Source: Antennarius striatus
Lineage: Eukaryota > Chordata > Actinopteri > Lophiiformes > Antennariidae
Assembly: GCF_040054535.1 (NCBI RefSeq)
Contig: NC_090783.1
Span: 2,437,501 to 2,501,500 of the forward strand
Direction of reading: 5' to 3'
Length of the DNA: 64,000 bases
This document shows, piece after piece, positions 13,978 through 16,900 of the stretch. The notes beneath the pieces were generated by a model that was given only the letters and a program-made list of their open reading frames with translations, had not been told where the DNA came from and ran no database searches. The stretch's first letter is position 1; each line of letters starts with the position of its first letter. The translations under genes and the position numbers were made by a program.

Positions 13978-16900
13978 ATGTCTTCAGACGAGCTGCTCCA
14001 GATCCCCCTGGGGCTCATCAACAGCGCGGGGAAGTACCTGACGGCCGAGACCTTCGGCTTCAAGATCAACGCTTCAGCCAGCAGCCTGAAGAAGAAGCAG
14101 ACGTGGACCCTGGAGCAGACCGGGCAGGACGGCAGCGCCGTGTTCCTCCTCTCCCACCTCGGCCGGTACCTCGCCACGGACAAAGACGGGAACGTCACCG
14201 CGGACAGCGAGACCCGCGGCCGGGACTGCCGCTTCGTCATCGCCGCGCACGAAGACGGGCGGTGGTCTCTGCAGTCCGAGCCCCACGGAAGGTACCTGGG
14301 GGGCAGCGAGGACCGGATCACCTGCTTTGCGCAAAGCGCCACGCCGACCGAGAAATGGAGCGTGCACCTGGCCGTGCACCCGCAGGTCATCCTCTACAGC
14401 TTTGCGCGCAAACGCTTCGCCCACTTGAGCGTCCAAGGGGAGCGACAGGAGGTGTCAGTGAACCGGGATATTCCCTGGGGGGTCGACTCGCTGGTGACGC
14501 TGGTCTACCGTGACCAGCGTTACCACCTGGAGACTTCTGACAACCGGTTCCTGCGTAATGATGGAAGCCTGTCCACAAAGACAGACAAGGATACCGGCTA
14601 CATGTTGGAGTTCCGCTCCGGGAAAGTGGCGATCCGTGACTGCGACGGGCGGTACCTGGCCCCCGTGGGGCCATCCGGGACCCTGAAGTCTGGGAAAGGC
14701 ACCCGGGTGGGGAAGGATGAGCTGTTCGGCCTGGAGCGCAGCCATGCGCAGGTCGTGATGACTGCAGGGAACGAGAGGAACGTGTCCACGAGGCAAGGTG
14801 AGGCTCTACAGCGCCACATGCTGGTGGAAAAATCACACTGACACACACATAGCACCTGAATGCATTAATAGAATAAATGTGGAGTGTGTGTGTGTGTCTG
14901 TTTAAGAAACCCCTCAAACAGAATGTGAGACTTGGGTTCCCCATTTATCCCCACACCATGTGTTTCCCATTATCATGCGCTCACTTTCTCCCCACTCTCC
15001 ACCCCACCCCCACCCCCACTTTCTGGCCTAGCTTAACATTTTTTCTGCAGTAATTCTACCCTTGCTTTGCGGCTGCTGGTTGAGAGTTGGCGTCATTCTG
15101 CAGTTTCACCATCATTCTTTGTCTCAGAACAGACTGAGAACAGACAGAAAAACCAGGAGGGGTTCATGTAGGAGATAAAAGTGATAAATGGATAAATGTG
15201 TGTGTGTGTGTCGCATTCCAAGAGTGATGAACCGTGGGAGAAGAAAGATAATCTTTGTCTCAATGAGGTCATTGTAGGGCAGTGATGTTTGACCTGGTCT
15301 CTTAGTGAAGTCTTGGCAGGATAGTAATAACAGGTCAATAATGTCCATCCGTCTAAGGTGAACCCAGAAGGTCCTGGTGAGATACGAGACTCTGCTCTTC
15401 TCCCAGGGAGTCTTTAGGAATTAAAGAAATAGACTTACATCTTAAAACACATAATATAAATGCAAATTCAATTCAAAAAACTTTGTTTGTCCCCAAGGGG
15501 CAATTGAAGAAAGGCAAGCTGAAATATCCATCATGGGTCAAAGTCATGTGGAACGGTGCTACGATTCCGTCAGTCTAGTTTTACAGCACATATATCATGT
15601 GTTTTAGCAACATTAAACATGCTTTGGTTTCATCACATGTGATTTCAGTGTTTCAGAGGCAGGAGGAAGTTCTTTTCAGGGAGTCTGAGTCTCATCCTGA
15701 CCCCAGAGGCTAAACGTACCAGAGCATTTAGCTGCCTGATATTTCTCTTTAACCAAGCCCTAGTCTTTTAATCCATAGCTCTGTCCTGTAAGTATATAGT
15801 ATAAAAAGTGTTTGCTTTTGCCAGGCTTGTCTGATATAATTTTCACCATGACTCGTGACCTGTTATTAGTCCCTGGCAGGACATCCTGTGTGCGGGTCCA
15901 ACAATACAGCGAACCTACATCCACGCCTTCGGAGCTCAGGACATTCTGTCTGATTCAGTGAATTCAATCAAAGTGTAGGAAGAAAAGAAGAAACACCAGA
16001 GACTGAATGGAAACTGACTGAAAAACTTTCTTCTAGGTATGGACCTGTCAGCCAATCAGGATGAAGAAGGAGACCAGGAAGTGTTCCAGATGGAGATGAG
16101 CCGTGAGGAGAGGAAGTGTGCCTTCAGAACCTCTGCTGGGAAATACTGGACCCTGACACCGGGTGGAGGACTGCAGTCCACCGCCTCCACCAAGTAACCA
16201 CACACACACACACACACACACACACACACACACACACACACACACACACACACACACACACACACACACACACACACACACACACACACACACACACACA
16301 CACACACACACACACACAATAATGAATAACGCTATGATAAGGCATCATAGGCAGAGAAAGAAGGGTGATGTCATCCTGGGAATATTAAGTTATAAATATA
16401 AGTTATCATCATTAAATCAAATCGACACATGACCTACTCATTGTGTGTGTGTGTGTGTGTGTGTGTGTGTGTGTGTGTGTGTGTGTGTGTGTGTGTGTGT
16501 GTGTGTGTGTGTGTGTGTGTGTGTGCGTGTCACAGGTCAGCTAACACCTTGTTTGAGCTGGAGTGGCGTGACGGTCGTGTGTGTGTGCGTGCCGCTAACG
16601 GCAAATATGTGGTGGCCAAGAAGAACGGGCAGCTGGCAGCTACGGTGGACAACGCAGGTCAGTGGTGTTACTGAGATTTATGAACTGAAGGGGAAAGTAG
16701 CTGAAGAGAAATCGAAGTCTGAATGTAAAAAAAAATACTCTTATGATTCTCTTGGATAGTTTGATCCTTGATTGATGGAGTTCTGTGGGTTTAATAACCT
16801 GACAAATTAAAAGGATTTATGTTATAACAGAAACAAACAAACATAGTTTTTCTGTGTAACTGTTATGTTTGTAACTTTAATAAGTAATTAATTCAGTTAT

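Follow-up and report, generated by a model that had tools for sequence, protein, structure and literature searches.

Introns bridged by AC and GT repeats in fish

Fish are said to possess AC/GT bridged introns for which U2AF2 is dispensable, a class reportedly described by Lin et al. in 2016 (Genome Res., doi 10.1101/gr.181008.114). According to the matching passages of PMC6093180, approximately 10% of zebrafish introns carry a (GT)n tract upstream of the 3' splice site that pairs with an (AC)n tract downstream of the 5' splice site, the need for U2AF being thereby obviated, and brief passages on such fish introns in PMC9198270, PMC7404189 and PMC9508853 agree. An older proposal holds that complementary intronic repeats draw exons together (Lian and Garner 2005, as cited in an excerpt of PMC10027321), and AC/GT is the commonest dinucleotide repeat of the swamp eel genome according to an excerpt of PMC5466649. 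Besides, introns with distant branch points are treated in a part of PMC9508853, where structure between the branch point and the AG is said to shorten the distance, and where the human mean branch-to-3' splice site spacing is given as 29.3 nt. Finally, TDP-43 can bind UG tracts before a 3' splice site and repress splicing, e.g., that of CFTR exon 9 (excerpt of PMC12171016). Among the literature matches listed, no paper on the fscn1 intron analyzed here was found.

The fscn1 gene and its second intron

The window, i.e., the whole 64,000-nucleotide stretch of Antennarius striatus DNA that was analyzed, contains on its plus strand an fscn1-type fascin gene, recognized by a Pfam Fascin match (PF06268, E 2.3e-51) on the open reading frame 13966-14838; the name fscn1 is our assumption from this match and from the human protein. 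Exon 1 runs from the ATG (coding part 13978..14797) to the donor AAG/GTGAGG, where the slash marks the exon border. Exon 2 (16037..16193) was located by in-frame translation and an 84% DNA match to a paralogue, and exon 3 (122 nt, 16536..16657) by the paralogue match at its borders and the joined frame. Both borders of exons 2 and 3 match the paralogue, and exons 1-5 give a single open frame when joined, ending in LWEY and a stop; intron 2 (GT...AG, 342 nt, 16194-16535) is delimited on these grounds. Skipping of exon 3 would break the frame, its inclusion being thus required. If intron 2 were retained, an in-frame TAA would be read at 16195..16197 (the exon 2 protein match reaches one TAA), and because this stop sits one codon past the exon border, retention would be easily scored. 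In the same gene, the 89-nt intron 4 (17225..17313) is a small version of intron 2, with a short AC run close to the 5' end that pairs, in the predicted fold, with a GT run close to the 3' end. Elsewhere in the window, the plus strand holds a Ras-family small GTPase frame with the CaaX-like end CVLS (21493-22182; Pfam Ras, E 2.1e-31) and a frame whose match to the end of a protein kinase domain falls under the Pfam cut-off (25831-26313). The minus strand has two long open frames with overlapping ends (31690-34423; 458 and 464 aa), for which no Pfam match was found at E 0.001 and parts of which may resemble PALB2.

As in AC/GT bridged fish introns, an AC tract lies just past the 5' splice site of intron 2 and a GT tract just before its 3' splice site. 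The array scan placed a perfect (CA)60 at 16199..16318, its first base being intron position +6 in CAA/GTAAC. It is followed by a spacer of 123 nt (16319..16441), predicted to form a loop, and by a perfect (TG)42 (16442..16525), which occupies most of the interval from the branch motif to the AG and ends 10 nt before exon 3, the border reading CGTGTCACAG/GTCAGC. The first-pass annotation, which had reported (CA)60 starting 5 bases past the 5' splice site, (TG)42 ending about 10 bases before exon 3 and about 120 nt between them, was correct in its coordinates and counts. Dinucleotide arrays as such are common in the window, which elsewhere contains 3 CA arrays and 8 TG arrays with 20 or more units. 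Under independent placement, the probability that both arrays fall within 15 nt of a given intron's two ends is about 2e-6, a rough value since arrays cluster and fscn1 intron 2 was picked by eye.

Splice sites and branch point

The 5' splice site, CAA/GTAACC (16191..16199), lacks a G at -1 and at +5. Its duplex energy with the U1 5' end is -3.0 kcal/mol, compared with -5.9 to -10.1 kcal/mol for the other three donors of the gene, all four introns being compared, and -4.6 to -9.0 kcal/mol for three donors of the paralogue. It is thus the weakest by U1 energy among the 7 compared. With a plain consensus score, it reaches 6/9 matches and ties with fscn1 intron 4, i.e., the donor is weak, though not unique in the gene. 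At the 3' splice site (16526..16535), the pyrimidine tract that had been noted as missing is indeed absent: over the 22 bases that precede the acceptor trinucleotide, pyrimidine runs reach at most 2 nt, vs. 4 to 15 nt at seven other acceptors of fscn1 and its paralogue, and the pyrimidine fraction (0.53) is the lowest, with fscn1 intron 1 near at 0.59. Such an absence is suggestive of U2AF2 independence, as far as an acceptor sequence can indicate it.

No AG starts within 16402-16533, the 132 nt before the acceptor. A yUnAy scan gave the candidate branch-point motif TACTCAT (16435..16441), in which the A at 16440 would be the branch nucleotide, 95 nt away from the intron's 3' end; the CTCAT within this motif is the sole yUnAy match in 16319-16525 and directly adjoins the TG array. 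Since the branch motif adjoins the array and the stretch to the acceptor is free of AG, (TG)42 fills the usual position of a pyrimidine tract. Judging from this motif, the branch point probably lies in TACTCAT; it may alternatively lie inside the CA array or at a non-consensus A. If correctly placed, a branch-to-AG distance of 95 nt, far above 29.3 nt, is in line with the distant-branch-point introns treated in the part of PMC9508853 cited above, whereas the pairing partner of the TG strand in fscn1 intron 2 lies upstream of the branch point, which leaves this distance unshortened. CFTR intron 8, with its (TG)m(T)n before exon 9, also has a UG tract by the 3' splice site and little pyrimidine tract, but a complementary CA array is not described in the excerpt of PMC12171016, where the UG tract represses exon inclusion via TDP-43. 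A branch motif directly next to the TG array and degeneracy at both splice sites, as in fscn1 intron 2, are not described for AC/GT bridged fish introns in the passages cited.

Predicted folding of intron 2

As proposed in the first-pass annotation, the 342-nt intron was folded, and its MFE was -197.9 kcal/mol, i.e., about 12 standard deviations below the mean of 100 dinucleotide shuffles (-134.2, sd 5.5; z -11.65). The MFE fold contains 84 pairs between the perfect CA and TG arrays, comprising the whole TG array, which is the upper size that had been suggested for the hairpin; with the tail, there are 88 pairs. When 500 structures were sampled from the intron with 60 nt of exon on each side, every one had at least 83 CA:TG pairs, and scrambling the T/G order in the TG array (10 scrambles) cost about 115 kcal/mol. 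The pairing register is loose, the arrays being unpaired in the centroid because pairs slide. Together with the absent pyrimidine tract, this strong predicted pairing is a further likeness to AC/GT bridged fish introns. The earlier placement of the intron in the AC/GT-pairing class of fish is partly supported, in that its anatomy, missing tract and predicted bridge fit the excerpts of PMC6093180, PMC9198270 and PMC7404189.

The length dependence of the pairing was then simulated. When both arrays had the same length, 6 or more pairs formed with a probability of 0.27 for 5 units, 0.75 for 6 units and 1.0 for 7 units upward; the same probability was 1.0 for CA/TG units of 60/42, 55/42, 60/37, 60/5 and 10/42. 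Because predicted pairing saturates near 7 units per side, small gains or losses of units should hardly affect the predicted bridge. The suggestion that splicing could vary with array length is accordingly weak where pairing is concerned. Besides, each TG unit shifts the branch motif by 2 nt from the AG, so that TG length sets the branch-to-AG distance.

In the sampled structures of intron 2, the mean path between the two splice sites is 40 steps, vs. 341 in the linear molecule. Paths of 21 and 3 steps were obtained for fscn1 introns 3 and 4, respectively, and one of 24 for the paralogous intron; a short path is therefore not specific to bridging. The candidate branch A is 95 steps from the 3' splice site and about 126 from the 5' splice site, i.e., the modeled stem joins the splice sites, while the likely branch point stays at the opposite end of the stem. 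The predicted probability of being fully unpaired is 0.05 for the donor (-3 to +6) and 0.16 for the branch A. Remodeling of the RNA would therefore be required, on a calculation that considers secondary structure alone and leaves proteins out.

A proposed bridge between two weak splice sites

The explanation that we place first, to which we give roughly even chances, is that fscn1 intron 2 is an AC/GT bridged fish intron with very long arrays, in which the duplex compensates for weak sites and U2AF2 is little needed. Pairing would take place in the nascent RNA, between the CA array that follows the 5' splice site and the UG array that precedes the 3' splice site, and the duplex would hold the two weak sites side by side, offsetting the poor donor and the absent pyrimidine tract. 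Intron definition by the spliceosome could then proceed with U2AF2 binding reduced or absent. Since the branch point probably lies in TACTCAT, where the stem has its top, the first splicing step would require partial opening of the stem or a shorter pairing register. The arrays, the weak sites, the predicted duplex and the 132 AG-free nucleotides are established by the analysis, and we infer that the RNA folds in this way in the cell, that splicing depends on the fold and that U2AF2 is dispensable. The bridge is favored by the anatomy, by the distance of the fold from its shuffles, the persistence of the array pairs in all samples and the energy cost of scrambling the T/G order, and by the combination of the weakest donor energy with the shortest pyrimidine run among the introns compared. 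It is also favored by the existence of a described zebrafish class and by the small version in fscn1 intron 4. It is weakened by a candidate branch A far from both splice sites, by a donor and a branch A that are predicted to be rarely unpaired, and by a donor consensus score no worse than that of intron 4.

The paralogous intron and other fascin genes

A second fscn1-type gene (C16, L003) is identical at 161 of the 216 residues compared over exons 2-5. With a dS of 0.91-0.98 (two methods) and 39/75 four-fold sites identical between the copies, it is an old duplicate. In its intron 2 (L003 5202-6507, 1306 nt, donor CAA/GTGAGC), a CA array lies 7 nt from the 5' end (5209-5294, one interruption), followed 85 nt later by a TG array (5380-5435, one interruption) and then by a second TG array at 5529-5569. 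The CA array and the first TG array are paired in the predicted fold (mean 43 pairs). The acceptor lies 1.07 kb past the first TG array and has a 15-nt pyrimidine run. Both copies thus have a donor-proximal CA array and a CA>TG pair, and, of the two paralogues, only the window copy has a TG array abutting the acceptor. The existence of a paralogue whose arrays do not lie at both ends is a difference from AC/GT bridged fish introns, and a hairpin that stops short of its acceptor weakens the case for the bridge. Further CA and TG arrays lie upstream of paralogue exon 2, which makes chance a live option; common ancestry and repeated origin may both account for the arrays of the two copies. Two more fascin-like genes were found, on C16 near 13.755 Mb and on C21 near 7.323 Mb. 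With 102 and 220 nt, respectively, between the matches to the flanking exons, their gaps are too short for the 342-nt arrangement.

Genome-wide repeat patterns and alternative explanations

The strongest alternative, less probable than the bridge but still a serious one, is that abundant AC/GT arrays expanded in two stretches of the intron poor in splicing information, one after the donor and one between the branch point and the AG, where TG repeats create no AG. The repeats may fold, and splicing would proceed via U1, the distant branch point, ordinary helpers and perhaps exon enhancers. Such tolerance is in line with the many arrays of the window and of the paralogue introns, with a TG array that begins right after the branch motif, and with a paralogue that retains its arrays where bridging of the splice sites is impossible. 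Against it, the position of both arrays flush with both ends is improbable under independent placement, and compensation is to be expected where donor and acceptor are both degenerate.

Pattern counts over the 548-Mb genome, with consensus donors and one acceptor hexamer as proxies, bear on the same question; they mix true with chance sites and are blind to weak sites such as those of fscn1 intron 2. At AGGTRAGT donors followed within about 30 nt by an array of at least 10 units (both strands), no CA preference was found genome-wide, with 59 CA and 83 TG sites compared with 108 and 139 for the backward motif used as control (p 0.75). In total, 142 sites were array-adjacent at AGGTRAGT vs. 247 at the backward motif; avoidance of arrays near donors might be behind this, which we do not claim, as the motif frequencies are drawn from just 73.9 kb (7 and 7 over both strands). 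Before the acceptor proxy TGCAGG (about 20 nt), no TG preference was found either, with 865 TG and 859 CA sites (172 and 114 for the backward motif), most TGCAGG sites needing not be acceptors. These proxies without CA/TG preference weaken the bridge, and the same lack of orientation bias favors tolerated repeats. Among forward-strand close pairs with a gap of 104-164 nt, CA>TG (747) is rarer than TG>CA (1248) in rows that were not de-duplicated, and this deficit also speaks for tolerance.

Thirty of the 59 CA-donor sites were followed further, and a TG array of at least 8 units was found within about 1.5 kb downstream in 7 of these loci, 4 of which also have a YAG no more than 30 nt away. For 30 of the 83 TG-donor sites, a downstream CA array was found in 4, with a YAG in 1, while an array of the same type lay downstream in 15/30 CA-donor and 17/30 TG-donor loci. 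The 7 CA-donor loci with a TG partner are at most candidate bridged introns. Short hairpins were counted as AGGTRAG followed by an array pair with a gap of 30-91 nt between six-unit blocks. CA>TG was found at 13 distinct sites (45 rows) and TG>CA at 6 (52 rows), whereas the backward motif, on one strand and with two gap ranges, gave 4 and 6 for CA>TG and 4 and 4 for TG>CA. The 13 vs. 6 count, which runs against tolerated repeats, has a p of 0.17 against even odds and of 0.008 against the close-pair ratio (747:1248), the latter counted at other gap lengths. Compared on one strand with the backward-motif control, whose two gap ranges overlap in sites, p is 0.31. The CA>TG excess after AGGTRAG is suggestive at most, and the proxy counts give no clear sign of the AC/GT bridged class being common in Antennarius striatus.

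A history that we consider rather unlikely, drawn from the paralogue pair, is that the fscn1 intron acquired its CA>TG hairpin before the duplication or shortly after it. The window copy would then have lost about 1 kb by the acceptor, whereupon the hairpin bridged the two ends. The G at +5 of the donor and the pyrimidine tract would have decayed because the hairpin carried their load, while in the paralogue the hairpin coexists with a better donor and a complete pyrimidine tract.

Among known factors, hnRNP L binds long CA tracts and CELF proteins bind long UG tracts. It is conceivable, though improbable, that splicing efficiency is set here by proteins, hnRNP L bound to (CA)n and either TDP-43 or CELF bound to (UG)n, the duplex being secondary or competing. 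Binding of TDP-43 to UG repeats before a 3' splice site is described in an excerpt of PMC12171016, where it represses splicing, which also weakens the bridge. Against control by proteins, TDP-43 on the UG tract of CFTR exon 9 represses inclusion, and fscn1 exon 3 must be included. Besides, CA/TG pairing is predicted to be complete, and protein binding at this intron is putative.

Long dinucleotide arrays are error-prone in assembly and the donor is weak, but wrong array lengths, or a different donor or acceptor used in life, are very improbable given exon borders that match the paralogue, a frame intact through the whole gene and a CA array near the same donor in the paralogue.

Significance

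By its anatomy, fscn1 intron 2 is a clear member of the known AC/GT bridged kind, with a putative mechanism. As AC/GT bridging is already known, the intron adds no new mechanism. What is new here is the weakness of the splice sites on both sides, the placement of the branch motif, the saturation of predicted pairing near 7 units, the comparison with the paralogue and the proxy counts without orientation bias. One genome thus offers a bridged intron together with a paralogous intron that has similar arrays and a normal acceptor, a pair in which it can be asked whether repeat hairpins can replace splice-site signals.
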